Origin: Chloroflexota bacterium
GTDB taxonomy: Bacteria; Chloroflexota; Dehalococcoidia; SM23-28-2; JACOUE01
Assembly (NCBI GenBank): GCA_016178045.1
Contig: JACOUE010000021.1
Location: 1 to 38,688 of the forward strand
DNA: 38,688 nt
Direction of reading: 5' to 3'
Both the position numbers and the translations under genes were made by a program. This document shows, one piece after another, positions 3,073-9,971 of this stretch. Under the pieces are notes generated by a model. It did not search any database. It was not told the origin of the DNA and saw only the letters and a program-made list of their open reading frames with translations. How positions within the stretch are numbered: position 1 is the stretch's first letter; the number at the start of each line of letters is the position of its first letter.

Positions 3073-3879
3073 TCAGGGGCTAAAGGCCTGGTCGAGTAGG
3101 GCCCGCACCTGGTCTATAGGCAGGCCCTGGCCCAGATATGAATCAGCGACGCGGATCTCGAAGTGGAGGTGGACCTCAGCGTTCGGGTCGGTCACGCTCT
3201 CCGGCGTACCGGAGTTGCCCACGTACCCGATCACCTGTCCTGCCGCCACCCAGACGTTCTTCTTAATGCCGGGCGCGATGCCATCCAAATGGGCGTACCG
3301 GGTGACAATACCGCCGCCGTGCTCGATCCAGACCTGGCGGCCGCGGAAGCGGTCGAGCGCTTCCTCGTCAGTATAGCCCTGCGTTTGTGAACGGGTCAAC
3401 AATTCGTCGACCTCCTCCGCTGTAAGGGGTACGTAGTCGCGGTCAGCGCGGATGACGAGGCCGGCCTTGGCCGCCAGCACCGGCATGTCCTTGAAGACGG
3501 AGGCGCAGGCCAGGCCGTCGTAGAAGTCGACGCCCTCGTGGACGCCGGCGCGGTAGGGGCGGGGAGCGTTGGGGAGGAGGTTGTCGCTGGTGGGGATGCA
3601 AGCGCCCTCGATCGGGAAGACGAAGCCGCTGAGGACGGGAGGCAGCGAGGTCCCGGTGAAGACGGTGGGCGTGGGCGTGGCGAGGAGGGTGGGGGTGGCG
3701 ACGAGGGTCGGGGTAGCCGTAGCGGTGGCCGTCGGCCTCAGGAGGAGCGTGGGCAAAGGCGTGTCATAGCCGGTAGGCCTGGAGGAGGCGGAGCCGCAGG
3801 CCGCGGCCAGCATCAGCGGCAGGAGGAGGCCGCAGATTACAGCCAGCGGGCGAAGATTGTCGCCGTGGCCCGTCGCCAT
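3073..3879 (-). CDS. M23 (LytM-type) metallopeptidase-like lipoprotein
   Basis: Predicted envelope lipoprotein with a peptidoglycan-endopeptidase fold. The 268 residues start with a signal helix ending in the lipobox LAAAC, so C28 would be lipidated. A Pro/Thr-rich spacer covers residues 49-75 (repeats of ATPTL). The M23 domain runs from about 85 to 250. Zn-site residues are visible: H114 and D118 in GVHEGVDFYDG and H239 in EVHLHFEIR, with H197 in RYAHLD and H237 as catalytic histidines, so it may be active. An insertion at about 150-182 interrupts the usual core. An upstream in-frame extension to 4020 exists, but the signal peptide argues for the ATG at 3879. It lies 16 bases after the copZ-like gene and 15 bases before ccsB. 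Why it belongs to a cytochrome c operon is unknown. Confidence 0.85.
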   Translation of the reverse strand: MATGHGDNLRPLAVICGLLLPLMLAAACGSASSRPTGYDTPLPTLLLRPTATATATPTLVATPTLLATPTPTVFTGTSLPPVLSGFVFPIEGACIPTSDNLLPNAPRPYRAGVHEGVDFYDGLACASVFKDMPVLAAKAGLVIRADRDYVPLTAEEVDELLTRSQTQGYTDEEALDRFRGRQVWIEHGGGIVTRYAHLDGIAPGIKKNVWVAAGQVIGYVGNSGTPESVTDPNAEVHLHFEIRVADSYLGQGLPIDQVRALLDQAFSP

Positions 3880-3895
3880 CCTCTCGGCGCTGCCC

Positions 3896-4108
3896 CTACT
3901 TCCTGACCGGATACCCTTCCTCCGCCATCGCCTGCTCGATGGCGGGGAGGGCAGCCTGCGCTGGGTCGTACTCGAGGGTGACGCGCTTGCTGGCGGGGTC
4001 GCCCTCCAGGAACTGCACACCGGGAAGGGCGGTGACAGCCTTGCGGATGGCGTTGATGCAGTGGTCGCAGGAGATGTTGGGGGCCTCCAGGGTCACTCTC
4101 TGGGGCAT
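3896..4108 (-). CDS. Small HMA-domain metal chaperone (CopZ-like)
   Basis: Seventy-residue single heavy-metal-associated domain protein, the length of CopZ/MerP-type copper chaperones. The metal site is ISCDHC (C14, C17), followed by the expected INAIRKAVTALPGV helix and a C-terminal EEGYPV. This family binds Cu(I) in the cytoplasm and hands it to P-type ATPases or other targets. A strong ribosome site, AGGAGGT, lies 5 bases before the ATG at 4108. It heads the run leading into the M23 lipoprotein and the cytochrome c assembly genes, about 6 kb from copA. It could serve copA or supply copper to heme-copper oxidase assembly; the second idea rests only on neighbourhood. Confidence 0.88.
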   Translation of the reverse strand: MPQRVTLEAPNISCDHCINAIRKAVTALPGVQFLEGDPASKRVTLEYDPAQAALPAIEQAMAEEGYPVRK

Positions 4109-4211: not shown

Positions 4212-4937
4212 CTAATTCACCCTCCTGACCAGAGCCACGGGTGTCTGTTCGCTCCCTTGGCCTAAGGGATTGTCGGCGAAGGTCTTCTCGACCAGCCTTC
4301 TGTCTACGGAATCTGGTGCACCAAGAACCCTTTGGCCCAGGTCATTGGCATCGATTATCGCCACTTGGACCCCGGAAAGGGCGCGGGAGAGTTGTTTTGC
4401 CACCTTATCGGGGTCCTTGGGCGGAAGCTTAGCGTAGTGGTTATAGGGCGGAATCGTATAAGGTGTGGGGCCATCGATTGCGCTAATGTTCTTGTCAGCA
4501 ATGACATAGAACAAGCCCCTGATCCCGAAAAACCTGGGAACGATGGCCAGGATACCTGCAACCAGTATTCGCAGGAGGCCAGCCTCGCGAATAGCCAGTT
4601 CCATGGTCTCCGGACTGCCAATGCCAATGCCCCAAGCCGGCTTCGAAACAAGCCTCGACAGGAACCTGGCCCAAGAAGAAGGCCAGATCTGCTCCACAGG
4701 GAATGCCCTCCCCTGGGCAATGGCGACGATCTTCTCGGATACAGCCACGATGTCATCCCTCTGCAGGAATGGCGTTACCGCTTCCTTCACCACTGACATG
4801 ATGTCGTCGTCCTCAGTAACAAGAGGAGTCTTGATCGGGTAACGGGCATATTCCTTCCCGTCAACCTCAATGATCAGCTGTTTGCCCTGATTGGGCGATG
4901 GCAGGGGCACGGAATCGCTCATGGGGGTCTCCATCAA
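4212..4937 (-). CDS. F420-0:gamma-glutamyl ligase-like protein (CofE family)
   Basis: Resembles the CofE/FbiB ligase family, which joins L-glutamate to an acidic acceptor using GTP. The 241 residues include DDIVAVSEKIVAIAQGR (about 61-77), matching the family's start-strand and SKIVSxxEGR motif. GLFYVIADKNISAIDGPT stands where CofE has its metal-binding Asn/Asp segment. VAIIDANDLGQRVLGAP stands where CofE has SDTFGRP. The region GLLRILVAGILAIVPRFFGI is unusually hydrophobic. No F420 biosynthesis genes are seen nearby, so the acceptor is unknown. The start may be the second ATG at 4922 (MSDSVPLP). Either start overlaps the 3' end of asnB (by 71 or 56 bases), implying coupled translation. Base composition is lower in GC than the flanks. 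The family call is fairly good; the reaction is open. Confidence 0.68.
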   Translation of the reverse strand: MMETPMSDSVPLPSPNQGKQLIIEVDGKEYARYPIKTPLVTEDDDIMSVVKEAVTPFLQRDDIVAVSEKIVAIAQGRAFPVEQIWPSSWARFLSRLVSKPAWGIGIGSPETMELAIREAGLLRILVAGILAIVPRFFGIRGLFYVIADKNISAIDGPTPYTIPPYNHYAKLPPKDPDKVAKQLSRALSGVQVAIIDANDLGQRVLGAPDSVDRRLVEKTFADNPLGQGSEQTPVALVRRVN

Positions 4938-6741
4938 AGAATACTCTCAACCAGAGCTCCAGATTCAGGATCCGCCAAAAGAGCAAACTGTCGTCGGTCT
5001 TGCCTTTGATGAACTCGTGAAAGGCGGCAACCACCTTCTGGGCATCGAAGTACTTCCTGGACCTAAAGTGGGCGCTCTCGAAGATAGCCAGCACCTGGTC
5101 TTTCTCCGCTCGCAGCCACGAGACTTCGGGGGTGGTAAAGCCCACCTTCCATCGCCTGCGAATGATCTTGGGCGGCAAATAGCCCCTCAGGGATCTTCTC
5201 ATAATGTATTTGTTCCAGCCGTTCCTTATCTTTAGGTGAGCTGGTAGGGAAAGTACGAAATCAACCAGATCGTTGTCCAGAAACGGCACCCTTGACTCCA
5301 CGCCAAAGGCCATGGAATTTCTGTCTTGATAACGCAAAAGGGCAGGCAGGCTGAAGATAGTCAGGTCATCGACTAGCCTTCTGTTCAAATCGTCCTTGCT
5401 GGGACCAGGGGGCGGCGTGCTCCTGCTCCCTTCAACAAAATCTCGCCGTAGTAACGTGTCGGGATCTATCGCCTGAATGATCCCCAGCCTCAGCTTCAGC
5501 TGCTCGATGAGGGGCTTCCATAGTACGTCCAGGGCAAAAAGGATCTCTTTCAAAAGCCGAAGAGGCTTCCTCTCGGTGAGCAACTGACGCAGATAGACGA
5601 AATGGTAGGGGACATAACCGGCCAGGAGCTCGTCGGCCCCCTGTCCGTCCAGGAGAACCTTTACCTTCGAAGAGGCAGCCTTCACGACCTCCCATTGGGC
5701 GAAGATGCCGGTGCTCACAAACGGCTCATCCTGGTGATAGATGACTGTCTCCAGCTGATCCCACAGATTATCTCTGCTTGGAAAGACGAGGTGCTCTTGA
5801 ACCTCTGCCGCTCGTGTCACGCAGTTTACGTAGTCGCTCTCGTCATTTATTTCGCCGGGGAACACGGCTGAGAAGGTTTTTTGCCTATCACCGATGACCT
5901 CTCTCTCTGCCAGGCCTTGTTTCAGCAGCGAGTTGATGACCATAACCACCGATGACGAGTCGAGTCCGCCGCTAAGCGAAGTCCCAATCGGCACTTCGCT
6001 GATCAACTGCCTCCTGACCGCGGTCTCGAACAGCGTGGCGAACCGCTGCGCCAGCTCGTCTTCTTTAGCAGTTTGCGGCGGGCCATCAACCTTTGGCTGC
6101 CAATACTTCTGAACCGAGACCCTGCCCTCGCTAAGCACTAGGTATGTGCCCGGTAGCAGCCTTTTAATGCCTTCGAAGAATGTTTCCTCACTGTGATCAT
6201 GAAGGCGGTAAACGAGATACTGATAGATTTGGCGGTCGTTTGGCAGCGTCTTCTTACATCGCAGGAGGGCCTTTATTTCGGAGGCGAAGTACAACTTGTC
6301 TCCTTCGACAAAGTAGTAGAGCGGCTTGATGCCCAATCGGTCTCGAGCCAGGATAAGCCTGTTCGCTTTCCTGTCGAAGAGCGCGAAAGCGAACATGCCA
6401 TTGAGCAGGGGGAACGCTTCCTCGCCGTGCTCCTCGTATAGATGGACGATCACTTCCGTGTCAGAGTTGGTCCGGAAATGGTGCCTGTCTTCTAACTGGT
6501 CTCGCAGCTCCCTATAGTTATATATCTCGCCATTGTAGACGATTACCAACGTTTCGTCCTCGTTGAAGATCGGTTGGCCCCCCCTCTCCAAGTCGATGAT
6601 GGCCAGGCGCCTGTACCCTAATGAAACCGCCTGGCTTAAGAAGTAATCTTCGTCGTCAGGTCCCCTATGGGCCAAACTGGAGACCATAGCCTTCAACAAC
6701 TCATCGTCGCGTGGACCGGCAAAACCAGCTATTCCGCACAT
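4867..6741 (-). CDS. asnB: Asparagine synthetase B-type, glutamine-hydrolysing
   Basis: Makes asparagine, or amidates another carboxyl substrate, from aspartate, glutamine and ATP. The 624 residues begin MCGIAGFAG, with Cys2 as the class II amidotransferase nucleophile after Met removal. AHRGPDD (24-30), YNGEIYNYREL (69-79) and RDRLGIKPLYY (133-143) are the standard glutaminase motifs. The synthetase domain has the PP-loop SGGLDSS at 257-263 and GQGADELLAGY further on. Length matches the AsnB/exopolysaccharide-associated group (about 600-650). No Shine-Dalgarno is obvious. Its GC is visibly lower than the neighbours: hand counts of two 60-base lines at 5881 and 6481 give 32/60 and 28/60, against 44/60 for a line inside copA at 8281. 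It overlaps the ligase-like gene downstream, so the two are likely co-expressed and perhaps acquired together. Confidence 0.92.
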   Translation of the reverse strand: MCGIAGFAGPRDDELLKAMVSSLAHRGPDDEDYFLSQAVSLGYRRLAIIDLERGGQPIFNEDETLVIVYNGEIYNYRELRDQLEDRHHFRTNSDTEVIVHLYEEHGEEAFPLLNGMFAFALFDRKANRLILARDRLGIKPLYYFVEGDKLYFASEIKALLRCKKTLPNDRQIYQYLVYRLHDHSEETFFEGIKRLLPGTYLVLSEGRVSVQKYWQPKVDGPPQTAKEDELAQRFATLFETAVRRQLISEVPIGTSLSGGLDSSSVVMVINSLLKQGLAEREVIGDRQKTFSAVFPGEINDESDYVNCVTRAAEVQEHLVFPSRDNLWDQLETVIYHQDEPFVSTGIFAQWEVVKAASSKVKVLLDGQGADELLAGYVPYHFVYLRQLLTERKPLRLLKEILFALDVLWKPLIEQLKLRLGIIQAIDPDTLLRRDFVEGSRSTPPPGPSKDDLNRRLVDDLTIFSLPALLRYQDRNSMAFGVESRVPFLDNDLVDFVLSLPAHLKIRNGWNKYIMRRSLRGYLPPKIIRRRWKVGFTTPEVSWLRAEKDQVLAIFESAHFRSRKYFDAQKVVAAFHEFIKGKTDDSLLFWRILNLELWLRVFFDGDPHERFRAPAIAQSGQTADH

Positions 6742-7024
6742 AGGAGACTATATGGCCGCGCCTGCTGGTTCGCCTGCGACAGGAGCAGACAGCGCAATCT
6801 GCCAGCAGCCTGGGCGACGGCTTAGGTCACCTTCGACTCTAAAGGTATCGATGCATCGCATACAGGGCTATTCTACCCAGCAACCGCCATCCAAGTCTTT
6901 CCCGGCAAGTTCGTGGTGTCGCCGCAGGTTGGCAATTACGACCGCCGCGGCCGTAGCGTTGGCGATGGCGGCCACCTCTCGCACCTCCGATAAGTGTAAC
7001 GCCCGGCGGCGGGAAACCGCACGG
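6742..7024. other. Non-coding stretch upstream of asnB
   Basis: I see no convincing gene in these 283 bases. Open frames here lack family features. A self-complementary GATGCATC core occurs near 6850. The stretch continues the lower-GC composition of asnB at its left and merges with a permease remnant at its right. After a frame change from that remnant, a minus-strand frame (REVAAIANATAAAVVIANL) reads on to a stop and may be its continuation, but this is weak. Confidence 0.4.
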
Positions 7025-7164
7025 CCCAAGGTTGCGACTGACGGCCAGGGCCAGCGGGAGGCCCAGCAGGAATCCGGCGAGCGCGACGATTAGGCTTTGT
7101 GCTGCGACGACACGGTACAGGTAGCCGTGTGACGCGCCGAGCGCCTTGAGGATGCCGGCCCGCC
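7025..7164 (-). pseudogene. Remnant of an FtsX/MacB-type ABC transporter permease
   Basis: The minus strand encodes AGILKALGASHGYLYRVVAA followed by QSLIVALAGFLLGLPLALAVSRN. This is the classic FtsX-domain segment (Gi-LKALGAS, then a hydrophobic helix with GxxxGLPLAL) found near the C-terminus of MacB/LolC-like permeases. No start codon, no N-terminal domain and no partner ATPase are present. The segment begins abruptly just after the stop of the 71-aa gene and loses frame after about 45 codons. It is best read as a deletion remnant marking an old rearrangement between the copper operon and the asnB segment. Confidence 0.6.
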
Positions 7165-7176
7165 CTGGTTCTGTGT

Positions 7177-7392
7177 CTAGCCCCTGAGGCGCTTGCGCAC
7201 CCAGGGGGTCACTGTGGGCATGAGGATTATCATGCTCAGGAGGAACACCCAGACCGACCCGCCCACGCGGGCCACCCAGGTGTAGTCCCCCGTAAGAACC
7301 GTGACGCTGAAGAACACCGCCGCCGCTAGGAACGACACCGCGGTGTAGATGACAGCACTGACGCGGCCGGCTTGCCGGGGAAGGAACCTCAT
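7177..7392 (-). CDS. Small two-helix membrane protein downstream of copA
   Basis: Seventy-one residues of unknown function. It has two hydrophobic helices, about residues 12-34 ([21 protein letters not shown]) and 41-62 ([21 protein letters not shown]), a basic N-terminus ([10 protein letters not shown]) and a basic C-terminus (WVRKRLRG). The positive-inside rule puts both ends in the cytoplasm. Its ATG overlaps the copA stop by four bases (ATGA), so it is translated with copA. An accessory role in copper export or ATPase stability is inference from this coupling. There are no cysteine or histidine metal motifs; the only potential soft ligands are Met1 and M54/M58. Confidence 0.72.
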
Positions 7393-9971
7393 GACCGCGC
7401 CTCCAGGGCCGCGAGCGGCGGCTCGGCCGCCGCCTGCGGCGGGGCGGCGGGGGGCCCCCGCTTGACGGGCGGTCGGTAGCCCCGCATGCGGAGGGTGTTC
7501 ATGGTGACGGAGAGGCTGCTGGTAGCCATCAGCAGGGCGGCCAGCTCCGGGCTCACCACCTGGGCCAAGAACGGGTAGAGCAGCCCGGCCCCCAGCGGAA
7601 TCGCGGCCGCGTTGTAACCGAAGGCCCAGAACAGGTTCTGCTTCACCAGTCGCATGGTGGTCCTGGCCACCTGGATGGCGGCGACCACGTCCGTGATGTC
7701 GTCCCGGATGAGGATGACATGGCCGGTCTCCTTGGCGACGTCGGTGCCGGAGCCGATGGCCATACCGACGTTGGCCTGGGCCAGGGCGGGGGCGTCGTTG
7801 ATGCCGTCCCCCACCATGGCCACCGTCTTTCCCTCATCCTGAAGCCGCCGCACCTCGGCGGCCTTGTCCTGGGGCAGCACCTCCGCCAGGACGCGGCCGA
7901 TCCCCAGGCGGCGGCCGATGGCCTCTGCGGTGCGGCGGTTGTCGCCGGTCATCATGACCACTTCCAGGCCCAGCCGCTTCAGCTCCTGCACGGCCCGCGC
8001 CGACGTCTCCTTCAGGGTGTCCGCCACGGCCACAATGCCCTTGGGCAGGTCGCCGGCGGCCACGAACATCACGGTCTTGCCCTCATTCTCCAGACGCTCC
8101 GCCTCCGCCGTGAGGCCGTCGAGGGCGACGTGCCGGTCGGCCAGGAGCTTGCGATTGCCCAGGAGTATGGCCGTTCCGTCGAGGCGGGCCTCTACGCCGT
8201 GGCCGGGGATCGCCTGGAAGCTCTCTGCGGTCACCACCTCGATGCCGCGGGCACGGGCCCCACGCACGATGGCCTCGCCCAGGGGGTGCTCCGAGTTCAC
8301 CTCCGCCGCGGCGGCCAGCCGCAGCACCTTGTCGGGAGTGCCATCAAGAGCGACCACGTCGGTAACGGAGGGTTCGCCCTTGGTCAAGGTTCCCGTCTTG
8401 TCCAAGACGACAACCCGAATCTTGGACGTGGCCTCCACGGCGTCGGCGCCCTTGAACAGGATGCCGAACTCGGCGCCCTTGCCGGTTCCGGCCATCATGG
8501 CGCTGGGCGTGGCCAGCCCCACGGCGCAGGGGCAGGAGATGACCAGCACCGTCACCGAGATCAGCAGGGATAGTCCGAAGACGCCCAGGTCCTCCAGCTT
8601 ATACGGCGTGAGCACAAGGCGGCTGTCGGGCGTGAACCAGAGGTCGAATCCGACGAAGAACCAGAAGAGGAAGACGGCCAGGGCCAGGGCGTGCACCCCC
8701 AGGATGAAGTGGCCGGCCACCTTGTCGGCCAGGGCCTGGATGGGCGCCTTGGTCGTCTGCGCTTCCTCCACCAGCTTGATGATCTGGGACAGGGCCATCT
8801 CCTTGCCCACACGGGTGGCGCGGAAGCGAAAGGCGCCGGTCTTATTCAGGGTGCCGCCGATGACGTCGTCGGCAGGGCGCTTCTCCACCGGCAGGCTTTC
8901 GCCGGTGATCATCGATTCGTCGACGGCTGAATAGCCCTCAATGACGACGCCGTCGACGGGGACACTCTCCCCCGGGCGCACCACGCAAATGTCGCCCACC
9001 TCCACCTCATCGGCGGGGAGCTCCAGGTCCTGGCCGCCGCGGAAGACGCGGGCCCGCCTGGGCTGGAGTTTCATCAGCTTGCGGATCGCCTCCGAGGTGC
9101 GGCCGCGGGTGAGCGCCTCCAGGTATCGGCCCAGGACGATGAACGCGGTGAGGAGGGCCGCCGCCTCGTAGAAGGTGGCCTTCGCGCCGCCGAAGCCGGC
9201 GCCGGGCCAGAAGGTGTTGATGACGGCGATCATGTAGGCGGCGCCGATACCGGTTGCGTACAGAAGGTTCATGTCGGTGACGCCGCGGCGCAGCCCGTTC
9301 CAGCTGTTCACGAAGAACTGACGGCCCGGCCCGAAGACAATAGGCGTGGTGAGAAAGAAGAGCCAGATCTTGTTGCCCATGAACGCGGGCAGGACGTCGT
9401 CCAGCACCCAGTAGTCGCGAAAGGTCCCGAGCATGACGATAGCGCCCAGGGGCCAGGCCATAAGCATATTCACGAGCTGCCGCCGTATTTCCTGCCGGCG
9501 GAGGCTGCGCTCGCGGTCCAGGGCGTCCTCCCCCTCGCCCTTCTCGCTCACGTCGTAGCCCAGGCCGCGGACCGTCGTCTTGATCGCCGCCGCCGAGACC
9601 AGACCCTCGGCGAACTCCACCGTCACGGTGTCCGTGGCCAGGTTGACCTCCACGGAGGCAATGCCGGGCAGGGTGCCCAGGGCGGTCTTGATGGCGGCCT
9701 CGCAGTGGCTGCCCATCATCCCCAGGACCAGCAAATGCAGGCGCGACCAGGGCACCTCATAGCCGATGTCGCGGATGGCCCGCTCGATCGCCGGGAGGGC
9801 GCAGGCTTCGGGATCGAGCACGAGGCCCGCCTTGCCTGCGGCCAGGGAGACGGTGGCGGCCTGCACGCCGGGGAGGCCCTTGAGGGCCTTCTCGACCTTG
9901 TTCACGCAGGCGGCGCAGGTCATCCCGGCCACGGGGATGGTGATCTCGCGCATCTTCTCTTCAGTCGTCAC
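7389..9971 (-). CDS. copA: Copper-exporting P1B-type ATPase
   Basis: Pumps Cu(I) out of the cytoplasm using ATP. The 860 residues show an N-terminal HMA domain with GMTCAAC (C19, C22). A second HMA-like domain reads GMMGSHC: only C90 remains and the first cysteine is Gly87. Eight membrane helices follow, with the metal-site CPC at 480-482, phosphorylation motif DKTGTLTKG (D524), NSEHPLGEA in the nucleotide domain, MTGDNRRTA and [16 protein letters not shown] motif ([11 protein letters not shown]) is in the actuator domain. The start may be the GTG at 9971 or the ATG at 9953 (MREITIP); the latter has a purine-rich GAAGAGAAG upstream. It follows csoR by 30 bases on the same strand and is presumably derepressed by copper. 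Specificity for Cu over Ag is not separable from sequence. Confidence 0.95.

Follow-up and report, generated by a model that had tools for sequence, protein, structure and literature searches.

A recurrent pairing of an AsnB-type amidotransferase with a CofE-like ligase: a candidate module outside F420 synthesis

CofE, the coenzyme F420-0:gamma-L-glutamate ligase (PF01996, TIGR01916), which also forms the N-terminal domain of FbiB, adds glutamate to F420-0. In the part of PMC10861534 cited here, its active site is placed at the dimer interface and closed by a long domain-swapped hairpin; this hairpin and Arg234 of the partner subunit, which stacks on the isoalloxazine, hold F420. AsnB-type enzymes join a class II glutaminase domain to an AMP-forming synthetase domain. 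Besides asparagine synthetase, the family includes proteins which, in Listeria among others, amidate the peptidoglycan residue meso-diaminopimelate (mDAP), and which lack both the aspartate-binding Asp and Arg (PMC8554201, in the part cited). Here we describe a gene pair which brings relatives of CofE and AsnB together. It lies in a stretch of 38,688 nucleotides, the window, which covers positions 1 to 38,688 of contig JACOUE010000021.1 from a Chloroflexota bacterium (assembly GCA_016178045.1; Table 1).

Both proteins come from known superfamilies. Their pairing is a real unit and not accidental, and it very probably represents a dedicated module that makes neither F420 nor asparagine. As the best overall explanation we tentatively propose one module made of an amidotransferase from a dedicated AsnB clade and a CofE-fold ligase without the F420-binding parts, acting on an acceptor other than F420, most plausibly an envelope precursor. 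No account of an AsnB-CofE fusion was found in the full-text literature, in a coverage that leaves out most subscription journals and preprints.

Table 1. Features of the window at and around the gene pair
Feature	Position	Strand	Basis
AsnB-type protein of 624 aa (glutamine amidotransferase/AMP-forming synthetase) from the AsnB clade that is dedicated to CofE-like partners	4867-6741	-	profiles, motifs, trees
CofE-like (PF01996) ligase, 241 aa	4212-4937	-	profiles, AlphaFold2 (AF2) model, spacing and tail comparison
Overlap of the AsnB and CofE-like reading frames	4867-4937	-	coordinates of the open reading frames (ORFs)
CopZ-like heavy-metal-associated protein, flanking the presumed insertion	3896-4108	-	name from the translation, by eye
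Copper-type P1B ATPase (copA), other flank of the presumed insertion	7389-9971	-	PF00122, PF00403 (two matches)
Remnant between the pair and copA, presumably the end of an FtsX/MacB-type permease	~6990-7180	-	resemblance; name assumed
M23 peptidase ORF	3073-4020

The pair and its two domains

An earlier note on this DNA had reported an AsnB gene and a PF01996 gene overlapping by 56-71 bases. The reading frames are as it described: the overlap measures 71, 68 or 56 bases for a start of the CofE-like gene at TTG 4937, ATG 4934 or ATG 4922, respectively. The note had also considered that the pair might occur only here. This is not the case. A search of the class, a sample of the phylum and GTDB genomes (80 of 86 GTDB loci kept) together gave 101 distinct loci. 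The rows L071 and L072 were dropped as duplicates of L075 and L098. In 50 of the 101 loci a single frame of more than 600 aa contains AsnB first and the CofE-like domain at its C-terminus. The genes are separate yet adjacent in the window and at L075, L069, L070 and L150; at L152 another ORF lies between them, and at L153 only the end of AsnB is present. The remaining loci are mostly standalone CofE-like genes of Clostridia, Patescibacteria and some Chloroflexota. The fragments L151 and L154 were left out of the domain alignment. The closest relatives in the class are found in G212 (69% identical, with the genes overlapping again) and in G022, where both halves share one frame. Of 218 genomes from one order of actinomycetes, 25 have the CofE-like gene, 18 of them in frames of more than 800 aa and seven as a standalone gene right behind the principal sigma factor gene; in a clostridial class it occurs in 17 of 216 genomes, always standalone.

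The two genes also occur together across genomes. In the phylum sample of 400 genomes, all 13 genomes with an AsnB of the linked clade had a CofE-like gene, compared with 7 of the 387 others (Fisher p 9e-20, uncorrected for kinship and obtained with the AsnB half of a fusion as query; judged from the genome lists, both searches apparently used the same draw of 400 genomes). In G381 and G479 the clade AsnB and the CofE-like gene are located on different contigs; hence the co-occurrence is more than linkage. Fusion and co-occurrence together put the pairing beyond chance. The clade AsnB at L199 in G381 measures 855 aa; no CofE-like domain is recognisable in its C-terminal stretch, which is perhaps what is left of one. 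The same genome carries an intact standalone CofE-like gene on a contig other than that of L199. A conserved third gene was considered as part of the module and rejected, as the neighbours of fused and standalone genes did not recur across lineages.

The CofE-like protein exceeds the cut-off of PF01996 (58.8 bits, cut-off 25), the profile comparison suggested in the earlier note, and stays far below that of TIGR01916 (37.5 bits, cut-off 180.65). With its AF2 model (predicted local distance difference test, pLDDT, 92.4), all Foldseek matches at E < 0.001 were CofE chains. Comparison of the model with 2phn by VIA gave Z 14.3 over 183 residues at 3.4 A, the next family reaching Z 4.5, and hhalign aligned the protein to the CofE profile with a probability of 98 (E 2e-13). 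The fold is thus that of CofE. The distance between the conserved motifs, however, is 26-28 residues in 58 of 58 CofE-like proteins as against 46 in 19 of 19 true CofE proteins, and the median C-terminal tail is 8 residues long instead of 29. The alignment of the model to 2phn ends at residue 222, before Af R234. Judged from its position, the gap of about 20 residues would correspond to the hairpin with which CofE contacts F420. The CofE-like protein is therefore predicted to have the CofE fold without the parts that hold F420 and, on this modelling, is not a CofE. Sequence and profile alignments disagree on the CofE metal ligands in the window protein, and this mapping was not used; neither was the way in which a model of the fusion (predicted template modelling score, pTM, 0.68) places its two domains against each other.

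The AsnB half of the window matches PF00733 (252.6 bits) and PF13537 (GATase_7, 164.9 bits); the genome has no other full-length Asn_synthase. It exceeds the cut-off of the asparagine synthetase profile TIGR01536 (448.4 bits, cut-off 267.1). N-acetylglutaminylglutamine amidotransferase and XrtA amidotransferase were discarded as identities, the scores lying below the cut-offs of TIGR03104 (323.1, cut-off 570.1) and TIGR03108 (389.6, cut-off 816.9). Like most linked AsnBs it retains Cys2, HRGPD and SGGLDSS. The aspartate pocket is altered. The catalytic Glu, human Glu-364, corresponds to Glu348 in E. coli; D384 and R387, which bind aspartate, are likewise numbered as in E. coli. In the window, DGQGADE stands where SGEGSDE is expected, so that Gln replaces the catalytic Glu, and the Glu-364 column is non-Glu in 54 of 56 linked AsnBs, the two with Glu both being degenerate. 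Human asparagine synthetase with the E364Q exchange is inactive, according to the part of PMC6748925 cited. The Asp384 column holds Asp in none of the 56 linked AsnBs (Ala in the window copy), and Arg is retained at R387 in all 56 in the alignment. The loss of these aspartate-pocket residues agrees with the earlier suggestion that this AsnB has an acceptor other than aspartate.

In a tree of 32 of the 56 linked AsnB rows and 28 control AsnBs (of the degenerate AsnBs most were left out, as were actinomycete rows nearly identical to one another), all 32 linked rows formed one clade (100/98) apart from the 28 controls. Within it, the fused rows grouped with one another (92/67) next to the window and G212, and a further unfused group stood at the base. 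The tree of the CofE-like domain used 76 of 99 rows. Since the linked AsnBs had been gathered through their CofE-like partners, a reverse search starting from AsnB was important. With the window AsnB as query, strong matches were found in 36 of 294 genomes of the class. Three of these belonged to the clade, and all three had a CofE-like gene alongside; among the others, none of the 27 whose locus was read had one. These sequence comparisons indicate that the linked AsnB is dedicated to CofE-like partners and probably not an asparagine synthetase.

In nine fused actinomycete loci (L114, L115, L116, L118, L121, L123, L126, L139, L144) the AsnB half has lost Cys2 and/or SGGLDS, with the CofE-like motifs intact. 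Pseudoenzyme AsnB halves are thus retained. Such loci would be expected if the CofE-like half did the chemistry and the AsnB half served mainly as a scaffold, dimer surrogate or regulator, its amidotransferase activity being secondary or ancestral. The absence from the CofE-like proteins of the segment that would correspond to the hairpin closing the active site at the CofE dimer interface (PMC10861534, in the part cited) points the same way. Yet most linked AsnBs, that of the window included, keep their catalytic motifs, and in Clostridia and Patescibacteria CofE-like proteins exist without an adjacent AsnB, so that we consider this reading decidedly unlikely.

F420 and folate genes of the carriers, and the origin of the pair

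According to the earlier note, no F420 genes lie nearby. This holds for the contig, where PF01996, PF01933, TIGR01819 and TIGR03551 match only at the CofE-like gene (cofC was not searched). It does not hold for the genome as a whole, which the note had proposed to search: cofD (C19), cofH (C24) and a true CofE (C53; TIGR01916 292 bits, cut-off 180.65) are present on other contigs. With the latter, the CofE-like gene is not the only CofE candidate of the genome; the note would have given up a separate pathway had it been the sole CofE beside complete F420 genes elsewhere. Among 54 carriers of the CofE-like gene, 20 have CofD over the cut-off, namely 18 of the 28 linked carriers and 2 of the 26 with a standalone gene. 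No CofD beyond about 25 bits was found in nine of the 28 linked carriers (G212, G342, G434, G665, G670, G672, G673, G675, G677) and in 24 of the 26 standalone ones, and none over the cut-off in any of the 24 standalone genomes G640-G663. The pairing without F420 genes which the note had anticipated does therefore occur. In five Chloroflexota genomes (G312, G296, G490, G537, G588) CofD was over the cut-off and CofH had no match at E 0.001. Possibly these are users of salvaged FO, or their assemblies have gaps.

Relatives of CofE also work outside F420 synthesis. CT611 of Chlamydia, a member of COG1478, complements an E. coli folC mutant (PMC1971073, in the part cited). By analogy the CofE-like protein could be a folate polyglutamate synthase of the FolC2 type, with AsnB as a coincidental passenger. 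In the window genome (an assembly about 90% complete) no folC exceeds the TIGR01499 cut-off (best 24.7 bits), and at L149 the upstream neighbour encodes formate-tetrahydrofolate (formate-THF) ligase. However, FolC is over the cut-off in 46 of the 54 carriers, the CofE-like protein reaches 21 bits with TIGR04132 (cut-off 350), and neither the fusion nor the clade-specific AsnB would be explained. Replacement of FolC by the CofE-like gene was rejected for the first of these reasons, although the window genome is not among the 46. We regard a role in folate synthesis as improbable, and folate as a weaker alternative to an envelope-precursor acceptor.

Alternatively, the pair could modify F420 itself by extra glutamylation or amidation of its tail. 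The F420 genes of the window genome and the CofD matches in most linked carriers would be in line with this, as would contig C40 of G212 (L071/L075), where cofG/cofH-like genes follow about 1.2 kb downstream of the pair. With so many linked and standalone carriers lacking a CofD match, and with the hairpin segment and the R234-bearing tail both missing, this seems very improbable. For G212 itself, no CofD over the cut-off was found despite these cofG/cofH-like genes.

The pair has a lower GC content than its surroundings, as noted earlier (54.4% against 67.9% in the rest of the window). The third-codon-position GC (GC3) of its genes is 0.67 and 0.66, compared with 0.91 in the neighbouring copA. 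In the class search the same-order genomes listed reached at best E 1.2e-5, no better than the level of true CofE, as against E < 1e-60 in two genomes from elsewhere in the class. Low GC and GC3, the placement between copA and the CopZ-like ORF as if both genes had been inserted together, and the lack of a close match in same-order genomes suggest recent joint transfer as the simplest reading. That an ordinary asparagine synthetase was co-imported beside an unrelated gene is scarcely credible: the TIGR01536 score, the status as sole full-length Asn_synthase and the foreign GC would fit, but not the single clade, the 50 fusions, the co-occurrence even when unlinked and the lost aspartate-pocket residues.

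No relative was found in the viral contigs or plasmid collections searched, and a viral or plasmid origin was set aside; two 'phage' matches are unverified gut scaffolds. Of these unannotated 'Bacteriophage sp.' scaffolds from the human gut, MT835656.1 (L073) encodes a complete AsnB-CofE fusion and MT838774.1 (L074) has a CofE-like gene. The fusion of MT835656.1 groups with the actinomycete fusions, and its scaffold resembles bacterial DNA.

Neighbouring genes and the predicted acceptor

The neighbours considered were 49 same-strand proteins at most 250 bases away, from 58 loci, of which 46 were scanned with Pfam. Eleven of these 46, from seven lineages, are related to peptidoglycan. They are a bifunctional penicillin-binding protein (PBP; L053, with a partial copy of it at L055), a flippase that matches MurJ weakly (also L053), alanine racemase (Alr) overlapping the fused gene (L062), MurB (L231, L232), NamZ (L142), an SLT domain (L086), VanW (L236), and MraY and FtsW (both L081). 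At L081, MraY precedes and FtsW follows the CofE-like gene, the order being mraY, CofE-like gene, ftsW, murG, murC fragment. In E. coli, murD occupies the slot between mraY and ftsW-murG. The M23 ORF of the window, separated from the pair by the CopZ-like gene, was excluded from the tally, although it is still among the 46 scanned. Among 83 control genes located farther off, the best 25 of 148 families contained no peptidoglycan family matched at least twice. The earlier idea of a cell-envelope component gains no more than indirect support from the peptidoglycan-related neighbours.

In Clostridia (L230-L233) the CofE-like gene lies between a solute-binding-protein gene and murB, within a uvrC ... 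murB-PHP-rapZ-yvcK region; at L232, yvcK was not found in the uvrC ... murB-PHP-rapZ neighbourhood. At seven of seven actinomycete loci of the order of G680 (L223-L229), a standalone CofE-like gene directly follows the principal sigma factor gene (rpoD/sigA), in some cases overlapping it. Downstream lies a gene on the opposite strand, which at L223 encodes a sugar-transfer-associated ATP-grasp protein (PF14397).

A possible mechanism starts with the CofE-like half, which would spend a nucleoside triphosphate (in CofE this is GTP) on activating one of the acceptor's carboxylates as an acyl phosphate. It would then join an amino acid, probably glutamate, to the activated acceptor, as CofE does to F420-0. 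Presumably afterwards, the AsnB half would hydrolyse glutamine, adenylate a carboxylate of either this acceptor or the residue just joined to it, and amidate that carboxylate with the glutamine nitrogen. The nine fused loci with a degenerate AsnB and untouched CofE-like motifs suggest that the CofE-like reaction would be the core, the AsnB step being optional or lost where AsnB is degenerate. What is directly supported is the association, the fusion, the folds and the motif states, and the two-step proposal would account for the fusion, the standalone CofE-like genes, the decay of AsnB only, and the disappearance of the F420 pocket as well as the aspartate pocket. That both steps act on one acceptor is in our view slightly more likely than not. 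As this acceptor, an envelope component such as a precursor of peptidoglycan would be most plausible; that it is peptidoglycan in particular is conceivable, and we hold this with some reserve.

Several observations weigh against this proposal. Most neighbours are not envelope genes (GroEL, GGDEF/EAL, HAD, tRNA synthetase, formate-THF ligase and sigma-factor genes among them), and several CofE-like genes adjoin sigma factor, folate, tRNA or signalling genes. The comparison with control genes farther off covers the best 25 of 148 families. A separate count of neighbour enrichment is partly circular, some queries being the neighbours themselves, and was not relied on. The Gln of DGQGADE is shared with unlinked AsnBs of the broader group and hence not peculiar to the pair; R387, absent from the mDAP-amidating AsnBs (PMC8554201, in the part cited), is kept by all linked ones; and in G212 the pair lies near cofG/cofH-like genes. 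Finally, the carrier G658 has MurD over the cut-off in addition to its CofE-like gene, so the CofE-like gene is not a general substitute for MurD, and such a replacement was ruled out.

A bolder reading is that the CofE-fold enzyme, alone or fused to AsnB, acts as a peptidoglycan-precursor ligase. Next to Mur ligases and ATP-grasp enzymes, the stem peptide would then have a third, unrelated and so far undescribed type of ligase for glutamate or another amino acid. This enzyme would take the position of murD in one cell-wall cluster or more, and would range across Chloroflexota, Actinomycetota, Bacillota and Patescibacteria. We regard this as speculative and rather unlikely. If the peptidoglycan link is true, Actinomycetota, Clostridia and Chloroflexota would have a step of cell-wall tailoring not known before. 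Whether it is true or false, predictions of F420 made from PF01996 alone need correcting. Matches to PF01996 are easily taken as evidence of F420 synthesis, and this widespread branch, which keeps the fold without the F420-holding parts, occurs in lineages without F420 and fused to an amidotransferase without the aspartate pocket.

Comparison with known systems

With CofE and the N-terminal domain of FbiB, the CofE-like protein has the fold and the profile kinship in common. It differs in being about 20 residues shorter at the hairpin site, in its short tail and sub-cut-off score, and in that many of its carriers are without F420 genes. The FolC2 (CT611) and TIGR04132 folate gamma-glutamate ligases are COG1478/PF01996 relatives which work outside F420, as we propose for the CofE-like protein; the latter lies far under the TIGR04132 cut-off, and its carriers mostly have FolC.

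The AsnB half has the class II glutaminase and AMP-forming synthetase domains of AsnB asparagine synthetase (TIGR01536), with Cys2 and the PP loop intact in the window. Unlike that enzyme, it has Gln for the catalytic Glu and Ala for the aspartate-binding Asp, and belongs to a dedicated clade that is fused to a ligase in most lineages. The mDAP amidotransferases of the AsnB/LtsA type are members of the AsnB family which act on stem peptides and not on aspartate. The aspartate-binding Asp is missing in the linked AsnBs as well; as the linked AsnBs keep the Arg, they share one of the two features of the mDAP-amidating enzymes. A fusion to a ligase, as in the pair, is not mentioned for these enzymes in the cited part of PMC8554201.

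Another parallel to the module proposed here is the lipid II isoglutaminyl synthase MurT-GatD. Its ligase has an unrelated fold, that of the Mur ligases, and its glutaminase is of a different class from that of the pair. Like the pair, however, MurT-GatD is a unit of a ligase and a glutamine amidotransferase, which in the cited part of PMC8554201 acts on a carboxylate of the stem peptide.

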